Assembly (NCBI GenBank): GCA_947566705.1
Contig: CANOLA010000027.1
Coordinates: 1-35,861 of the forward strand
Direction: 5' to 3'
Length of the DNA: 35,861 bases
Source: an uncultured Lachnospiraceae bacterium
GTDB lineage: Bacteria; Bacillota; Clostridia; Lachnospirales; Lachnospiraceae
The notes beneath the pieces were generated by a model. The model was not told where the DNA came from. It saw only the letters and a program-made list of their open reading frames with translations, and ran no database searches. The position numbers and the translations under genes are program-made. Each line of letters opens with the position of its first letter. The first letter of the stretch is position 1. Below, in pieces: positions 2,917 through 34,767 of this stretch.

Positions 2917-4149
2917 ATGAAAATCACTTTTCCCAAAAATAGAATCAAAGTACACTCCATATCTTTATATATGTGCTTTATTATGATATTGACACTTTCC
3001 GGCTGTCAGACTGTACATAATCGCATAGAAAAACTGACACATGGCAAAATGAACGGCGTTGCCACGGACTGCCGTATTCTGTCAGTGGAAGGAACAACAG
3101 GTTCCGGTCACTATATCTGTAAAAACAGTACTCATACATATATTTACCATAATAATGCAATATACGATTATGAAACAATGGAAAAATTAATAAAAGCAGA
3201 AGACTTAGAATTTATGGCTTGCAATGACGATATGCTGTATTATTCTATTTCCTGCCATGACGGACAATTATTTTGTTATGATTTTTCAGAAAAAACAAGT
3301 ACACTCATTTCGAAAGAATTTCGAGTTACCGGAATGAAAGCAAATGGTGATGATGTTTTTGTTTCACAAAGAGATAAAGATGGCAAAGGATATATAAATG
3401 GAAAAACTGCAGTTCAGCGAATATATGAAGTAATTTACTATCATAAAAAGGAAAACGGAATATCCCTAAAAGAGTGGGCAAAAGAGCACAAGGGACAAAG
3501 CATTTCGGATGACTATGAAACATATGAATTTGAAGGATATGAAATCGTTGCAGATAAGTCATTAGGACAGGATAATCCCCGGTTCGTTTTTATTGGAAAT
3601 GAAGATGGATTTCAGTATTCCTGTTACGGTTACAATACTTATAATAAAATAAATGAGGAGTATCTCCGGATAGGCATTGATGTAAAAACCAAATATCTTG
3701 GAATAGAAAAAGAACTTTCGGAAATTATGACTGCAGATACTGCCGAGGCAGGTCTATCTGCAGCCCAGATAGGCTTTTATGATGATAAAGCCTGGATGAT
3801 TGTACAGTATGGAAAAGGCACACCTGGTTATCAGGAAAACCCAACCAAAGATTTTAAATCAACGGACGCCTTTTTTGAATTTTCTCCCGAAACGAATAAA
3901 TGCAGAAAAATATATCAGATTCAGGAAGGTGAACAGATAGCTGGATATTCCTATACGAAAAACTGCTTATATTTATTACGCAATGAAGGAGTATATGAAT
4001 ATGACCTGAAATCGGGTAATGAAAAATGTGTGTTTGAAAACAAAGGGTATAAGTGCCTTGCCTTCGATTATTTTGAAGACAGATTATTTATTTTCCATGA
4101 TTCCTATTCACCTGACTCTGGTGTAGAACTGGTGTCGGTTGTTGATTAA
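2917..4149 (+). CDS. Predicted lipoprotein, beta-propeller-like (410 aa)
   Basis: The ATG at 2917 follows TTGGAGGT nine bases upstream. A hydrophobic segment leads into the lipobox LSGC near residue 29, so the mature protein should be lipid-anchored outside the cell. The rest is a run of short aromatic-rich strands with Tyr/Asp turns (THTYIYHNNAIYDYE, DDMLYYSIS, GQLFCYDFSEK, SYTKNCLYLLRNEGVYEYD, FEDRLFIFHD) that recur through the length, as in blade-type propeller proteins that bind peptides or carbohydrates. I do not recognise a named family. It starts 19 bases after the methyltransferase and is probably the last gene of that operon. No intrinsic terminator is visible after it; the next gene has its own promoter. 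Confidence 0.65.
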   Translation: MKITFPKNRIKVHSISLYMCFIMILTLSGCQTVHNRIEKLTHGKMNGVATDCRILSVEGTTGSGHYICKNSTHTYIYHNNAIYDYETMEKLIKAEDLEFMACNDDMLYYSISCHDGQLFCYDFSEKTSTLISKEFRVTGMKANGDDVFVSQRDKDGKGYINGKTAVQRIYEVIYYHKKENGISLKEWAKEHKGQSISDDYETYEFEGYEIVADKSLGQDNPRFVFIGNEDGFQYSCYGYNTYNKINEEYLRIGIDVKTKYLGIEKELSEIMTADTAEAGLSAAQIGFYDDKAWMIVQYGKGTPGYQENPTKDFKSTDAFFEFSPETNKCRKIYQIQEGEQIAGYSYTKNCLYLLRNEGVYEYDLKSGNEKCVFENKGYKCLAFDYFEDRLFIFHDSYSPDSGVELVSVVD

Positions 4150-28818: not shown

Positions 28819-29526
28819 ATGAACATACCAGCCAGCAAAGTCTTATTTTTAGAAGATGAACCTACCATCCGCGAAGTATTGACTGAATACATGCTTATTT
28901 CCGGTTATGAAGTAACTGCAGTAGAACGCGGGGACAAAGCAATCAGTCTGTTAAAAGAACATATTTATGATATAGCAGTTTTAGATATTATGGTGCCGGG
29001 CGCAAATGGCTTTGAAGTACTGGAATATATAAAAAAACACTGCCACAATACCGCTGCAATTATGCTGACTGCATTAGAAGACGAAAAAACACAGGTTGAG
29101 GCTTTTAACCTGTATGCGGACGATTATGTAATTAAACCCGTATCCCCGATTATTCTGTTAAAACGCATGGAAACAATCCTAAGGCGTATTTCCCTGGGAC
29201 AAAAGGAACAAAACAGCGATTCCAAACAGCAAAAAGGACTTTATCTGCAGGAAGAAGCATACTGCGCATATTACCAGGGCAGAAAACTTCCGCTTACCCT
29301 GAGCGAATATCTGCTTTTAAGGACTCTTTATAAAGAACCAAACCAGGTATTTACAAGGGAACAGCTTATTTTAAACATTTTTAATGAAGATTACATTGGA
29401 AATGACCGGATTATTGATGCCCACGTAAAAAACCTCCGTAAAAAACTTCCTGTTCCCTGCATAAAAACAGTAATAGGAATTGGATACCAGTTTAATAAAG
29501 AAGCAGAAAAAGAGGTACAGCAATGA
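28819..29526 (+). CDS. OmpR/PhoB-family response regulator
   Basis: A 235-residue regulator. The receiver domain (about 7-120) has the acidic pair in FLEDE, the phosphoacceptor in AVLDIMVPGANG (Asp56), the conserved Thr in MLTALEDE and the Lys in DDYVIKPVSP. The winged-helix domain (about 140-228) has LTLSEYLLLRTLYKEPNQVF, REQLILNIFNED and RIIDAHVKNLRKKL with IGIGYQF at the end. ATG at 28819 follows AAAGGA at a longer than usual distance. The stop overlaps the kinase start by four bases, so translation is coupled. Its promoter carries the same direct repeat as the ABC transporter promoter, which points to autoregulation and direct control of that transporter. Confidence 0.95.
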   Translation: MNIPASKVLFLEDEPTIREVLTEYMLISGYEVTAVERGDKAISLLKEHIYDIAVLDIMVPGANGFEVLEYIKKHCHNTAAIMLTALEDEKTQVEAFNLYADDYVIKPVSPIILLKRMETILRRISLGQKEQNSDSKQQKGLYLQEEAYCAYYQGRKLPLTLSEYLLLRTLYKEPNQVFTREQLILNIFNEDYIGNDRIIDAHVKNLRKKLPVPCIKTVIGIGYQFNKEAEKEVQQ

Positions 29527-31133
29527 AATTAGGAAAACGAAATCTATTTTACAGCATAGTACTGGCAGGATGCATGCTCCTGTTTCTGGTGGGATATTTC
29601 GTATATATGCTGCCTTCCCTGTATGTAAATTACATGATGGAACAGAATTTAGTATCCATTAAAAATCAGCATATAGCTTACATGAAGGATGGAAACTATG
29701 GAAATGTTCAGGTTAAAAATCCAACCGCATGTTTTACCCTCAAAATTCCGGATGAAGGGGACAGTATTCATATTACTGCAAAAATGTTTTCTGCAAAAAT
29801 AACCATTAAAGAGGAAAAAACGAGGGAACTGTTTACAGAACTTCGCAAAATCTTAAAAGAATACTCCAGAAACACAAATGAAATTAATACTGATGAAATA
29901 GAGGAAAAATTCAAAGATAAAATTGAAGAATGCGGTAATATATTTCAGAATTCCTTTACCAAAAATCCTTCCATTCCATTCCAGATACAGATTTCAGAAA
30001 CCCGGAATTTTAATAACGAATTTCTTGATGAATATATGAAAACACATATGATGTCTGATGATTTCATAATTTTTGAAATGGGCATCCATGATGAAGAAAA
30101 TCACTATGTCAACTATATGGCAGCCGAACGGACAGAAGAATGCCTGATTCTGACTTTCCTGCCGGCCATGATGCCGGATATGAATGAAATTCGTCCAATT
30201 GTACTTCAGAGTCTTCCTATGCTCGGCGCTGTCATCCTTTTACTTGTACTGTTGTTTTCGCAGGTATATTCAAAGAGCATCGTAACACCAATCGAATGTC
30301 TTGTACAGCACACAGAACAAATGAAAAATTACCAGAATTTTTGCCATTTTCCTTCTGACAGCAAAAAAAATCACAGAAAAGACGAAATCGGTATACTTGA
30401 AATTACCATCAACGAACTTTACCAAAAGCTTAAAGCCAGCTTTAAAGAACTGGAGGAAAAAAACCTTATCCTTAAAGAAGAAAATATAAGACAAGAAGTT
30501 TTACTCAGAGCTTCTTCCCATCAGCTGAAAACACCAATTTCCGCAGCACTTCTGCTTGTGGACGGAATGAAAAACAAAATCGGAAAATACCAGAATACAG
30601 ATATATATCTTCCAAAAGTAAAAGAACAGCTTCTGTCCATGAAAAAAATGGTAGAAGACATCTTATATTTAAACCATTTTGGGGAAAATCCGGATATGCA
30701 GGAAAGAGATTTGCAAAACATTCTTGAAAAACAGCTTGCAGCTTATCAGATTGCCATAACAGATAAAAAACTCAGTATAACCATAGAAGGAAAAAAACAC
30801 CTGACAATTTGCACAGATGAGACGATATTTTCCGCTATTCTTGAAAATATCCTTTCAAATGCAGTAAATTATACACCTGAAAATAAACAGATAGTAATTA
30901 CATTATCCGAAAAAGAAATCCTGATACAAAATTATGGAACCCGCATTGATGATGAAATCCTTCCCCATATTTTTGAGCCTTTTGTCAGCGGCAGCCATGA
31001 AAAGAAGAAAAACAACATGAACAGCCACGGACTGGGACTTTACATTGCTGCATACTATGCAAAAAAAACCGGAATCACAATTAACATATATAATAAAGAA
31101 GAAAGTGTTGTAACCGTGCTTCGTTTTCCATAA
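29523..31133 (+). CDS. Sensor histidine kinase with large extracytoplasmic domain
   Basis: A 536-residue kinase with membrane helices at about 10-30 and 230-250 that enclose an extracytoplasmic domain of near 200 residues, unlike the short loops of Bce-type sensors, so it probably binds its ligand directly. A HAMP-like linker (about 250-305) and coiled coil follow. The H-box is ASSHQLKTPISA (His333), the N-box ENILSNAVNYTPE, and the ATP lid includes PHIFEPFVSGS and SHGLGLYIAAYYAKKTG. All catalytic boxes are present. It starts inside the end of the response regulator gene (ATGA overlap). The following promoter at 31170 starts the transporter genes. The signal is unknown; a peptide antibiotic is the likeliest given the neighbours. 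Confidence 0.93.
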   Translation: MKLGKRNLFYSIVLAGCMLLFLVGYFVYMLPSLYVNYMMEQNLVSIKNQHIAYMKDGNYGNVQVKNPTACFTLKIPDEGDSIHITAKMFSAKITIKEEKTRELFTELRKILKEYSRNTNEINTDEIEEKFKDKIEECGNIFQNSFTKNPSIPFQIQISETRNFNNEFLDEYMKTHMMSDDFIIFEMGIHDEENHYVNYMAAERTEECLILTFLPAMMPDMNEIRPIVLQSLPMLGAVILLLVLLFSQVYSKSIVTPIECLVQHTEQMKNYQNFCHFPSDSKKNHRKDEIGILEITINELYQKLKASFKELEEKNLILKEENIRQEVLLRASSHQLKTPISAALLLVDGMKNKIGKYQNTDIYLPKVKEQLLSMKKMVEDILYLNHFGENPDMQERDLQNILEKQLAAYQIAITDKKLSITIEGKKHLTICTDETIFSAILENILSNAVNYTPENKQIVITLSEKEILIQNYGTRIDDEILPHIFEPFVSGSHEKKKNNMNSHGLGLYIAAYYAKKTGITINIYNKEESVVTVLRFP

Positions 31134-31169
31134 AAACCTTTTTATATTTCACTTCATATATACACAGAC

Positions 31170-31201
31170 TTCATACGAAATTCATACGGAACTGTTATAC
31201 T
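31170..31201 (+). promoter_or_regulatory. Promoter and putative response-regulator operator of the ABC transporter
   Basis: TTCATA at 31170-31175 and 31181-31186 is followed by TATACT at 31196-31201. Repeat period (11 bp) and distance to the -10 (15 bp) equal those at 28756-28787, while the sequence around is otherwise different. A third TTCATA lies at 31153-31158. Confidence 0.68.
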
Positions 31202-31243
31202 TACAAAATAGAAAAACAAAACCAGATAAAATGGAGGATAAAT

Positions 31244-32131
31244 ATGGAAAACCCGGAACTGTTGCAAATTGAAAACCTGACCGTTCACTATGGAAAAGAT
31301 ACTGCCCTGCAGATTGAACACCCCATTTCTATCAGAAAAGGTGACAGAGTGGGCATTATCGGGGCAAATGGAGCAGGAAAGACTACACTTATTAAAAGTA
31401 TTCTCAGACTTGTAAATTATCAGGGCAGTATTCATACAAACCTTACAATGGAACAAATTGCAACACATATGCAGTTCAACGAGTACACAGATACCATGCC
31501 AACCAGGTATATTATGGAAGCAATTTTGCAGACCAAAATTTCTCAGGACAAAAAACTTCAGGAACTCATCAGTTATTTTGAATTTGAAGACTGTCTGCGG
31601 AAAAAGTATTCAAAACTTTCAGGCGGCCAGAAACAGAGATTCACCATTATCATGGTAATGATGCAGGATGCACCCTTAACTTTTTATGATGAAGTTACTT
31701 CAGGCCTTGATTTTGAAACAAGACAGAAACTTGTGGAAAAAATGGTTTCATGGTACAAAAACAAAGATTCCAGTCTTTGTATCGTATCCCATTATTACGA
31801 AGAACTGGAACATCTTGCCAATAAGCTTTTAATCCTTGACAAAGGACATGTCATTGATTATGGAAAGAAAGATGAACTGTTTCAAAAATACTGTGGCAGG
31901 GCTGTGATTATCCTGAACTATTCCAAGGAAAAAGAAACTGTCTTCCAGAACTATGAAAAACTGGCATCTCCGGCACACCTGATTGCATTATCCTGTGAAA
32001 CAGAAGAAAAGGAAAAGGAAATCATTGAATTACTGCTAAAACATAACATGGATTACACCAGAAGCAGTTCGGATATTGAAATCATTTATACGAATGCAAA
32101 AGAAAGATACAGTAAACAAAATTCTATATAG
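31244..32131 (+). CDS. ABC transporter ATP-binding protein under two-component control
   Basis: A 295-residue ATPase. Walker A is GANGAGKTTLIK, the signature LSGGQKQRFTIIM, and Walker B LTFYDEVTSGLD, with switch His in VSHYYEELE. The C-terminal 80 residues form an accessory domain (CETEEKEKEIIELLLKHNMD). The start follows GGAGG and the promoter at 31170. It pairs with the permease 24 bases downstream. By context it is a resistance or export ATPase induced through the adjacent two-component system. One ATPase plus one short ABC-2 permease differs from Bce-type transporters, whose permeases are about 650 residues. Confidence 0.92.
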   Translation: MENPELLQIENLTVHYGKDTALQIEHPISIRKGDRVGIIGANGAGKTTLIKSILRLVNYQGSIHTNLTMEQIATHMQFNEYTDTMPTRYIMEAILQTKISQDKKLQELISYFEFEDCLRKKYSKLSGGQKQRFTIIMVMMQDAPLTFYDEVTSGLDFETRQKLVEKMVSWYKNKDSSLCIVSHYYEELEHLANKLLILDKGHVIDYGKKDELFQKYCGRAVIILNYSKEKETVFQNYEKLASPAHLIALSCETEEKEKEIIELLLKHNMDYTRSSSDIEIIYTNAKERYSKQNSI

Positions 32132-32155
32132 ACCAAAAAGGAGGAATAACAGACT

Positions 32156-32944
32156 ATGAAAGAGAATAAAAGAAAAACCGTCAGCCTGTCCATGATAACC
32201 TATGAACTTCGGAACGTAACAGGAAATCCATTCGTACACATTTTCGGAATTGGGCTCCCTATTTTCTTTCTGTTCATAATTACACGCATAGTTGTCTCAA
32301 ATTTGCAGGACACATCACTCATTAAAACAGCTTCCACCTCTGTCTTTCTTGGAATCAGTACAATTATTCCAATGGCAATGATTTTAATGGGTTATTCTGT
32401 CATACAGTCGCAGGATCTGGAAAAAGGAATACCGGAACGCCTGCAGCTGTTTGGTATCAAACAGCATATAACCATCTGCAACCGCATCATTTCCGAACTG
32501 ATTTTTTTATCAGCGGCAATTATCCTTTATTTCATTGTGGGAATCATTTTTATGGATTTACAGACTCCGGTTATTTCCGGTATTATTATTTATATTTTCT
32601 GTATACTGATATTTAGCACTATCTGTTTTATACTCGGCCATGCAATTGCAACACTGCTGAGAAAGTTCAGTCTGACCTATTGCATAGTCATGTTGCTGTA
32701 CTTCGTCTTTATGATTTTCGGAGGAATGATGGGGATAACCTATGAAAATATGTCAGCTCCCATGCAGGCAGTTGCAAAGCTGCTTCCGGTCACATATTTT
32801 AATAAGGATTTCTACACCATATGGACAGGAAAATCCTACAATTTTGTTCCAATGCTGCAGTCCTACCTCTTTTTGGGTGCTATATCCGGAGTCCTGCTGT
32901 TTATCGCATTAAAAAAAGACAGAAGAAAAGGTAATTTATCATAA
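32156..32944 (+). CDS. ABC-2 type permease under two-component control
   Basis: A 262-residue membrane protein with six helices (roughly 25-45, 60-82, 107-128, 135-158, 170-192, 232-254). Between helices two and three is VIQSQDLEKGIPERLQLFGI, the coupling segment of ABC-2 permeases, and FGGMMGITYENMSAPMQAVA with PVTYFNKDFYTIW matches the ABC-2 pattern after helix five. It ends with a basic tail. It follows the ATPase gene with AAGGAGG upstream. No terminator is seen between it and the ABC-F promoter, so read-through into the ABC-F leader is possible. Confidence 0.9.
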   Translation: MKENKRKTVSLSMITYELRNVTGNPFVHIFGIGLPIFFLFIITRIVVSNLQDTSLIKTASTSVFLGISTIIPMAMILMGYSVIQSQDLEKGIPERLQLFGIKQHITICNRIISELIFLSAAIILYFIVGIIFMDLQTPVISGIIIYIFCILIFSTICFILGHAIATLLRKFSLTYCIVMLLYFVFMIFGGMMGITYENMSAPMQAVAKLLPVTYFNKDFYTIWTGKSYNFVPMLQSYLFLGAISGVLLFIALKKDRRKGNLS

Positions 32945-32949
32945 TTGTA

Positions 32950-32978
32950 TAGACAATTCATCTATTCTGTGTTATACT
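32950..32978 (+). promoter_or_regulatory. Promoter of the ABC-F gene
   Basis: TAGACA (32950-32955) and TATACT (32973-32978) are spaced by 17 bases. Transcription from about 32985 yields a leader of roughly 245 bases. Confidence 0.65.
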
Positions 32979-33009
32979 CTGCAATAAGTCAATAAAATCT
33001 AACAATATA

Positions 33010-33135
33010 GGAGAGGGGCGATAAGATGCGGATATAATCTACTTTTGAAACATGAGTCTTGTTAACAAGGCAGCACTTTCTGCTGTTTGTTCATGTTGCC
33101 AAAAGTGGATTATGTTCTCATAACCCCTCTTTTTT
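33010..33135 (+). promoter_or_regulatory. Attenuator leader of the ABC-F gene
   Basis: AGAGGGG (33012-33018) pairs with CCCCTCT (33124-33130), which runs straight into a six-T tract, closing a terminator. Inside, ATAATCTACTTTTG (from 33034) pairs with CAAAAGTGGATTAT, and AACATGA with TCATGTT, giving a long hairpin. The alternative fold GG-A-TTATG/CATAACC (about 33108-33126) would break the outer helix and leave four bases before the T-run. The leader-ORF ribosome binding site is part of the terminator's 5' strand, so a stalled ribosome should prevent termination. Confidence 0.75.
33026..33037 (+). CDS. Three-codon leader peptide (Met-Arg-Ile)
   Basis: ATG-CGG-ATA-TAA lies seven bases after the GGAGAGGGG ribosome binding site, inside the attenuator. 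Very short leader ORFs are a known device before antibiotic-resistance genes of the ABC-F and methylase types; a drug-stalled ribosome on the leader lets transcription continue. The coding sequence itself carries no other function. Confidence 0.6.
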   Translation: MRI

Positions 33136-33231
33136 GGTGCAAAAAACTGAGATTACATTTTCCATTACCATGGCATCATGTTCTGAAAATGGCGCATTTG
33201 CTGCTATTCTCAAAGGAAATGGTGATAAATA

Positions 33232-34767
33232 ATGGCACAAATAAATGTAAATAACCTTACTTTCTGTTACGAAAACAGTTTTGATAACATATTTGAAAAT
33301 GTTTCATTTTCGATTGATACCAGCTGGAAGCTTGGTTTTATTGGAAGAAATGGAAAAGGAAAAACTACTTTTCTCAATCTTCTGATGAAAAAATATGAAT
33401 ACAAAGGTTCCATCAGTACAACAACCGTTTTTGATTACTTCCCATATCACATTTCGAATGCACAGATGAAAAAATGTGCAATTGATTTTATGGAAGAATT
33501 AAAACCTGACCATGAATCATGGAAAGTGATGTGTGAACTGGAAAAACTAAATCTTGATGCAGAGGTACTTTACCGGCCCTTTGAAACTTTAAGCCATGGA
33601 GAACGTACCAAAGTCATGCTGGCTCTGCTTTTTTCCGGAGATAATAACTTTCTGCTGATTGATGAACCCACAAATCATCTCGACCAGGAATCCAGAACAA
33701 CTGTAAAAGAATATCTTTCCAGAAAAAAAAGTTTTATCCTTGTCTCCCATGACAGAAACCTGCTTGATGCATGTATCGACCATGTTCTGGTTTTAAACCG
33801 CTGTTCCATTGAAGTACAGACCGGAAATTTTTCAAGCTGGTGGGAAAACAAAAGCAAAAAAGATATTTTCGCACAAAAAGAAAATGAAAAACACCTAAAA
33901 GAAATCAGCAAACTGAAAACAGCATCACAGAACGCACGGCACTGGGCGGACAAAAATGAATCTACAAAAATTGGATATGATCCTATTAAAGAGCATGATC
34001 GCTGCAAGGGAACAAGAGCATACATTGGAGCAAAAACAAAGAAAATGCAAAGCCGTGTGAAGCAGATGGAAGAAAGAATTGATCAGGAAATCATTCAGAA
34101 AGAGGGACTTCTGCAGGACATAGAAACTCCCGCTGATTTGAAAATTACTCCACTTACACATTACAAAAATGTTTTATGTTCCATATCCGGATATTCATTA
34201 AAATATACAGACGCAGATAAATATCTGTTTGAAAACCTGAATATGGAAATTACGCAAAAAGAGAGAGTAATTCTGAATGGAAAAAACGGCTGTGGAAAAT
34301 CGAGCCTGATTAAAGCAATTCTGATTCACCAGAAAAACAAACTGCCTCTTTCTGATTATGGTCTGACTGAGACAGGGATACTTAAAACTGCATCAGGTCT
34401 GACTGTATCATATGTCAGTCAGGATACCTCTTTCCTGAAAGGCAGTATTTTTGAATTCTGCAGGGAAAAAAATCTCGATGAAAGCCTTTTCTGTTCTCTC
34501 CTCAGACAGCTTGATTTTGAACGTGTGCAGTTTACAAAAGACATCCAGGAATTTTCCCAGGGACAAAAGAAAAAGGTTCTAATAGCTGCAAGCCTGATAA
34601 CACCTGCCCATTTGTATATCTGGGATGAACCATTAAATTATGTAGATGTATTTTCCAGAATGCAGATTGAAAAATTAATTCTGAAATACTGCCCCACAAT
34701 GCTGATCGTAGAACATGATGTTATGTTCTGTGAAAAAATTGCAACAAAAACTATCTGCATCAGCTAA
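33232..34767 (+). CDS. ABC-F ribosome-protection ATPase, Lsa-like
   Basis: A soluble 511-residue protein with two ATP-binding domains and no membrane part. Domain 1 has Walker A GRNGKGKT, signature LSHGERTKV and Walker B FLLIDEPTNHLD. The linker of about 80 residues (roughly 200-285; KEISKLKTASQNARHWADKN and KKMQSRVKQMEERI) is the arm that reaches into the ribosomal exit site. Domain 2 has GKNGCGKSS, FSQGQKKKV and LYIWDEPLNYVD. The opening (INVNNLTFCYENSFDNIFENVSF) and the WKLGFIGRNGKGKTTF segment recall Lsa proteins, which dislodge lincosamides, streptogramin A and pleuromutilins. The first Walker B EPTNHLD is intact; the second is EPLNYVD, a common Lsa-type variation. Control is through the attenuator upstream. 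The precise drug spectrum cannot be read here. Confidence 0.9.
   Translation: MAQINVNNLTFCYENSFDNIFENVSFSIDTSWKLGFIGRNGKGKTTFLNLLMKKYEYKGSISTTTVFDYFPYHISNAQMKKCAIDFMEELKPDHESWKVMCELEKLNLDAEVLYRPFETLSHGERTKVMLALLFSGDNNFLLIDEPTNHLDQESRTTVKEYLSRKKSFILVSHDRNLLDACIDHVLVLNRCSIEVQTGNFSSWWENKSKKDIFAQKENEKHLKEISKLKTASQNARHWADKNESTKIGYDPIKEHDRCKGTRAYIGAKTKKMQSRVKQMEERIDQEIIQKEGLLQDIETPADLKITPLTHYKNVLCSISGYSLKYTDADKYLFENLNMEITQKERVILNGKNGCGKSSLIKAILIHQKNKLPLSDYGLTETGILKTASGLTVSYVSQDTSFLKGSIFEFCREKNLDESLFCSLLRQLDFERVQFTKDIQEFSQGQKKKVLIAASLITPAHLYIWDEPLNYVDVFSRMQIEKLILKYCPTMLIVEHDVMFCEKIATKTICIS

Follow-up and report, generated by a model that had tools for sequence, protein, structure and literature searches.

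We analyzed a stretch of 35,861 nucleotides from an uncultured Lachnospiraceae bacterium (hereafter the window), in which an ABC-F gene is preceded by a structured leader. The gene, of the ribosomal-protection type, lies at 33232-34767 on the plus strand, as do all leader features given below, and encodes a protein of 511 amino acids with two Walker A motifs. By profile, the protein appears to be an antibiotic-resistance-type ABC-F (NF000355, 429 bits, above the cut-off of 380); its score against the Lsa profile is below the cut-off (NF000167, 619 bits versus 750), and we therefore call it Lsa-like rather than filing it as Lsa. The best relative of known structure is Lsa(A) (7nhk). With plasmid Lsa(E) the protein shares about 52% identity, and Lsa(E) is also the best match among the 140 plasmid records with a related protein, each less than 60% identical. 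Upstream, 28819-32944 holds genes in one direction for an OmpR-type response regulator, a histidine kinase, an ABC ATPase and an ABC-2 permease.

The leader opens, as claimed in an earlier note on this DNA, with a sigma-A-type promoter at 32950-32978 (TAGACA-N17-TATACT, with TG before the second hexamer); it matches the consensus at 10 of 12 positions. It is followed by the Shine-Dalgarno sequence GGAGAGGGG (33010-33018) of a three-codon ORF (uORF), ATG-CGG-ATA-TAA (Met-Arg-Ile; 33026-33037), also found where that note had placed it. A CCCCTC strand (33124-33129) then runs into a T6 tract (33130-33135). A competing hairpin, GG-A-TTATG / CATAACC, spans 33107-33125, with GGATTATG at 33107-33114 and CATAACC at 33119-33125. 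Three further segments are relevant below: CATGTTGCC (33092-33100), a strand of the 3' arm for which shuffles point to a second complementary site in relatives; GGCATCATG (33172-33180), which would be its partner in the window; and AAAGGAAATGGTGA (33212-33225), the probable ribosome-binding region of the ABC-F gene. Another possible three-codon ORF, ATG-TTC-TCA-TAA (33112-33123), falls within the competing hairpin; many relatives have it too, perhaps as a consequence of the base pairing.

Folding of the leader

The segment 32985-33137 folds as a single long hairpin of -53.4 kcal/mol, far below the mean of its shuffled versions (-29.6 kcal/mol; z = -7.07), none of 200 shuffles being equal. Its outer stem joins 33009-33018 with 33124-33133, pairing the Shine-Dalgarno sequence with the CCCCTC strand and part of the T tract; further in, the uORF start codon pairs with 33119-33121 and 33030-33047 with 33100-33117. 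We regard this hairpin (33009-33133), on the basis of fold, covariation and model score, as the proposed terminator 1 and anti-antiterminator. The suggestion that the Shine-Dalgarno sequence doubles as the 5' strand of a terminator is thus borne out by sequence, fold and covariation, but the terminator is the base of one hairpin of about 125 nt that contains the ORF, and not a compact one. A simple terminator scan restricted to short loops did not list this hairpin.

When 33010-33042 is masked, as by a ribosome at the start codon, the long hairpin dissolves and GGATTATG/CATAACC can form, in line with the earlier prediction. Five of its pairs then have probabilities of 0.90-1.00 and the two outer G-C pairs 0.16; by itself this hairpin has -3.9 kcal/mol. 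The probable ribosome-binding region of the ABC-F gene (33212-33225) is mostly paired in both predicted states. A Shine-Dalgarno-like motif with a three-codon ORF arose in 45 of 5000 dinucleotide shuffles of 32985-33137, and none of the 5000 additionally had an anti-Shine-Dalgarno strand followed by a T run.

Conservation and distribution of the leader

Homologues of the ABC-F gene were collected at E <= 1e-110 and found in 170 of 397 genomes sampled from the family; 13 named homologue loci belong to Lachnospiraceae and other Clostridia. The sample of 123 leader loci included 13 without a tblastn anchor and one without upstream sequence, leaving 109 oriented leaders, among them the window's own copy and a few double-fetched or sequence-identical loci (for example L024 and L041). 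In these leaders we find 50 candidate three-codon ORFs, the majority in one common sequence, GAGAGAGGTGAAAAG-ATG-AGR-ARR-TAA-TYTACTTTTG ... GTTGCCAAAAGTGGATTATGTTCTCATAACCTCTC followed by a T run. A stricter element pattern was passed by 39 of the 109 leaders (38 distinct), and 36 of these, including the window and excluding two for their length (L023, L071), were aligned. Since the pattern demands the ORF, its presence in the alignment is by construction.

Across the 36 aligned leaders the hairpin, with 36 pairs, is formed in 96.1% of cells, and helix 1, the hairpin base with the Shine-Dalgarno strand, in 95.1%. Double changes occur at 11 pairs in 25 cells, compared with a shuffle mean of 7.8, and none of 500 shuffles reached 25; sliding the partner by 1-3 columns reduced pairing to 46-62%. 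The competing hairpin, which the earlier note had described for the window, is conserved as well (93.2% of cells paired), with 4 double-change cells versus 0.9 in shuffles (4 of 500 as high). Sliding this helix by +3 columns gave an equal double-change count, yet just 47% pairing, so the covariation support for the short competing helix is modest. In partition functions of the free leaders, the terminator base exceeds 0.5 in 30 of 36 and is at or below 0.5 in six, and the competing hairpin is at 0 in all 36; with a start-codon ribosome masked in, the competing hairpin exceeds 0.5 in 29 leaders and does not in the other seven. The T run has at least five residues in 34 leaders and four in the remaining two. 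A promoter match of at least 9/12 lies just upstream of the element in 30 of the 35 leaders with enough upstream sequence, versus 22% of shuffles. The apex of the hairpin varies in both length and sequence.

With a covariance model, R1, the window leader scores 119.9 bits; minus-strand matches, which are due to the self-complementarity of the hairpin, were set aside. ATG, two sense codons and a stop stand at the aligned place in 54 of the 63 loci matching R1. Thirty-five of these loci are from the model set (35/35 by construction), and 19 of the 28 others have the three-codon ORF; when L041, whose sequence duplicates one in the model, and L023 and L071, which the ORF pattern had selected, are set aside, the ORF is present in 16 of 25 loci. 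By eye, the nine leaders lacking it include four with a four-codon ORF (L168, L082, L170, L077), one each with five (L084) and six codons (L099), one with a three-codon ORF shifted by one base (L098) and one with a GTG start (L171). A terminator kept with the ORF missing, the case named earlier as speaking against the attenuator, thus occurs once among the 63, in L172, a weak match of 31 bits from outside the family. The peptides are MRR (18), MRK (15), MRI (8), MKR (4) and MSR (2), with the rest found once each. The ORF is mostly Met-Arg-[Arg/Lys/Ile], and the leader as a whole is carried by 44 of the 170 homologue genomes. Codon 2 lies within a paired stretch, and in five leaders, including the window, a CGN codon breaks the pair while arginine is kept, a hint from the sequences that the residue itself may matter at this codon.

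R1 finds the element in 53 of the 397 family genomes, at 60 bits or more in 44 of those 53. Among 391 genomes sampled from the class there are four matches: the genome of the window, a further genome of the family and two that lie outside it. By comparison of places, the element stands directly before the Lsa-like gene in 44 of the 53 genomes, which leaves 126 of the 170 homologue genomes without it at the model threshold; most homologues thus have other leaders, including some at 68% identity (L025, L026, L044). In the window's genome, the search returned the window's leader alone.

The element also precedes other genes. In four loci (L166-L169) the gene behind it is an ABC-F of another type, with about 21-25% identity in tblastn pieces, two of the matches being weak (33 and 27 bits). 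In L160 it is followed by a shortened ABC-F gene and then by a GNAT acetyltransferase gene, in L162 directly by a GNAT acetyltransferase gene, in L163 by a P-loop/GNAT fusion, and in L164 by an ABC-F remnant and then a MATE gene. We do not claim the MATE gene as a new target, since the initial 12 codons of ABC-F remain in front of it. In L161 the element is present and the fetched stretch holds no ABC-F match. The window's upstream permease had no match in the loci of 42 relatives, over a reach of up to about 1.5 kb upstream, and the element is not linked to the transporter that lies upstream of it in the window. An exact 35-base pattern of the 3' arm was found in none of the viral contigs searched.

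Several other arrangements were observed in these loci. In L053 (genome G060, around 3000-3138, minus strand) the ABC-F start codon adjoins the 3' arm (CCAAAAGGAGAATTACTG-ATG), so that the ribosome-binding site of the gene itself would be hidden within the uORF hairpin; this is apparently, judging by its sequence, a translational version of the switch. A different leader type precedes more distant Lsa-like genes in 18 of the 109 leaders (for example L120, L128 and L137; some identical). Its uORF has 6-7 codons ending in Ser-Cys or Ser-Cys-Lys/Arg, and its TTTCTTGC can pair with GCAAGAAAG and reappears in a later terminator strand. A third type (L065, L069, L088, L077, L082, L170) has four-codon uORFs (Met-x-x-Arg) together with a hairpin close to the gene that often contains GCGTATGC and is followed by T. 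Lastly, L180 (genome G639) holds a tandem pair of CplR-type ABC-F genes, each above the family cut-off.

Complementarity of the 3' arm to a downstream site in relatives

Within the hairpin, the 3' arm has a GTTGCC that hardly varies and is only partly paired, and many relatives have its region's complement, TTTGGCARC, downstream of terminator 1 and ahead of the gene. For 30 of 38 leaders, no more than 5 of 100 dinucleotide shuffles equal the complementarity between the 3' arm and the downstream site; with a control segment from the 5' arm this holds for 2 of 38. Nine of 15 loci outside the 38-leader set pass at 10 of 200 mononucleotide shuffles, one locus without a recognisable arm being scored as a miss. 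Where the arm has CCAGA for CCAAA, the site has TCTGG for TTTGG in 4 of 5 leaders, versus 0 of 24 (Fisher p = 0.0002, with relatedness ignored; 29 of the 38 leaders could be scored). In 18 of the 38 leaders the complementary site is part of a hairpin with 5-8 T behind it, a putative second terminator; the script counted 19, from which L040 was discounted as its T run lies beyond the gene's binding site. In the window, the counterpart GGCATCATG is complementary to CATGTTGCC at 8 of 9 positions, a level that is not significant (10 of 100 shuffles), and its pair probability in the masked state is at most 0.19. We rejected a second terminator in the window itself because both the TTTGGCARC site and the T run are missing there, and by sequence the second tier is not evident in the window.

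Proposed mechanism and related systems

We propose that the leader is a ribosome-mediated transcription attenuator, a reading we hold with high confidence: its structure is supported by covariation, termination is what we infer, and the drug response is argued by analogy with vmlR and cplR. The combination of a conserved three-codon ORF, a Shine-Dalgarno sequence that serves as a terminator strand and a competing hairpin fits such attenuation. The leader shows the traits of this class, namely a downstream ABC-F gene of predicted resistance type, a conserved short uORF with a Shine-Dalgarno sequence, an intrinsic terminator as judged from sequence and structure, and an antiterminator that in silico is exclusive with it. 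Several points speak against it: the competing hairpin is short, with two weak outer pairs in the window and a double-change count that a three-column slide equals; six of 36 leaders for the terminator base, and seven for the competing hairpin on masking, stay at or below 0.5; 126 of the 170 homologue genomes lack the element at the model threshold; the window is without the second tier; and the start of the window's gene is predicted to be paired in both states.

Without drug, ribosomes would complete the three-codon ORF and depart. The vacated 5' arm, with the Shine-Dalgarno sequence and the ORF, would then pair with the 3' arm, the Shine-Dalgarno/anti-Shine-Dalgarno helix would shut the hairpin beside the U tract, and RNA polymerase would presumably halt near 33135, at a structure that covariation supports. 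Lincosamides, pleuromutilins and streptogramin A, by analogy with vmlR and cplR, may arrest the ribosome on the start codon or as the first peptide bonds form. Such a ribosome would occupy about 33010-33042, the terminator strand itself, the 3' arm would refold to GGATTATG/CATAACC, and transcription would proceed into the ABC-F gene. The 3' arm, once released, may in many relatives also pair with a second, gene-proximal hairpin, which would make the uORF hairpin there both terminator and anti-antiterminator.

The relatives further suggest a joint reading, to which we give about even chances: the leader would be an RNA family not described before, whose single tripeptide uORF governs two terminators, with the module also placed before other genes and the second tier lost or replaced in the window. 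Because the uORF Shine-Dalgarno sequence is the terminator strand, ribosome binding itself would open terminator 1; the released arm, GUUGCCAAA, would then open a second gene-proximal terminator or a hairpin that hides a Shine-Dalgarno sequence. The leader module would also have moved before another ABC-F type and GNAT acetyltransferases.

Three other explanations were weighed. The leader could act chiefly on translation or RNA stability by hiding or exposing the ABC-F ribosome-binding site, with a minor role for the T tract. The paired gene start of the window, the translational-looking L053 and the report that cplR works at both levels (PMC10201436) are in its favor, but the T tract beside the Shine-Dalgarno/anti-Shine-Dalgarno helix is kept in 34 of 36 leaders and masking of the uORF barely alters the pairing of the window's ABC-F ribosome-binding region, so we judge this improbable. 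We think it highly improbable that the leader is a ligand-binding riboswitch or the site of an RNA-binding antiterminator protein with an incidental ORF. A long conserved leader with near-invariant, partly paired bases (GTTGCC) could resemble an aptamer; against this, the apex of the hairpin is variable, the downstream complementary site explains the conserved bases in most relatives, and the ORF is retained although its codons vary. Rfam is also silent: in a scan of the window with Rfam 15, two tRNAs alone reach gathering and no family matches the leader, and a permissive scan of the leader gave chance-level matches only. We give equally little credence to the hairpin being a mere terminator of the upstream transporter operon with an accidental ORF. 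A same-strand gene (32156-32944) does lie upstream of the hairpin, but a promoter stands between the two, the window's permease is unmatched in the relatives' loci, the ORF is conserved, and the shuffles never gave the full combination. A chance ORF and an upstream-operon terminator were thus rejected by covariation, ORF conservation, absence of the permease and the shuffles.

Attenuation is the likely mechanism of this leader. If so, it illustrates how simple an antibiotic sensor could be, with three codons and a ribosome-binding site that is also the terminator strand. R1 offers a tested tool to find inducible ABC-F genes in the family, genes that would stay silent without drug. The presence of the leader before other genes points to genes that possibly respond to, or act on, ribosome-targeting drugs, and if the module has indeed been placed there, the GNAT and other ABC-F genes are candidate drug-response genes.

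Among known systems, we recognised no published description of the window's leader in the largely open-access literature searched; in passages of two motif-discovery papers (PMC8632094, PMC11109978), term counts gave no mention of ABC-F. The description of Listeria rli53 / lmo0919, compared by description only, is similar in having a conditional terminator before an ABC-F gene that is opened by lincomycin (PMC11550727, in part). The actinobacterial ARE5 genes are5sc and tiaA of Streptomyces (PMC12421871) share very short uORFs whose binding sites overlap a structural strand, and lincosamide, streptogramin A and pleuromutilin stall ribosomes at their start codons. Unlike in the window, where the site is the terminator strand, their uORF sites overlap anti-terminator hairpins, and the window's gene is not of their kind. 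Bacillus subtilis vmlR likewise has a tripeptide uORF (MIN), placed in an anti-antiterminator hairpin, and is induced by initiation-stalling drugs; loss of the uORF Shine-Dalgarno sequence or start codon nearly abolished its lincomycin-induced expression (PMC9226507). The vmlR uORF Shine-Dalgarno sequence is single-stranded before the hairpin and its terminator is a separate hairpin (SL-3), whereas the window's Shine-Dalgarno sequence is paired in the hairpin base.

The closest comparison is with Clostridioides difficile cplR. As reported (PMC10201436), a 5' hairpin of this ABC-F gene conceals a uORF for Met-Arg-Ile, the consensus in clostridia being MR[I/M], and a terminator and an anti-terminator are present; the gene is induced by lincomycin and retapamulin, and a start-codon mutant of the uORF left the reporter inactive. 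The ABC-F gene, the hidden Met-Arg-Ile uORF and the terminator/anti-terminator pair are all features that it shares with the window. The earlier suggestion that the three-codon peptide is specific to the window's family is consequently not supported: by eye, 6 of 12 CplR-type leaders also have a three-codon ORF (MRM, MKR, MRI, MKK, MKK, MRN), with four- or five-codon ORFs in three and, in the printed stretch, none in three; the start picked by script for L181 lies inside the gene. GTGGATA occurs in the 3' partner strand of eight of the 12, several end in a separate terminator holding the gene's Shine-Dalgarno sequence, and R1 gives at most chance-level matches in these leaders. The cplR report places the terminator in a separate hairpin that holds the main-gene Shine-Dalgarno sequence; the window has no such hairpin and no T tract between 33136 and the gene. 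Instead, its uORF hairpin itself ends in a T tract, closed by the uORF's own Shine-Dalgarno sequence, and its ABC-F gene is of the Lsa and not the CplR type. We regard the leader as a new RNA family and a compact variant of the attenuator kind known from vmlR and cplR; its distinguishing feature, as read from sequence, is this compactness: the uORF hairpin is itself the putative terminator, and the uORF's own Shine-Dalgarno sequence closes it.
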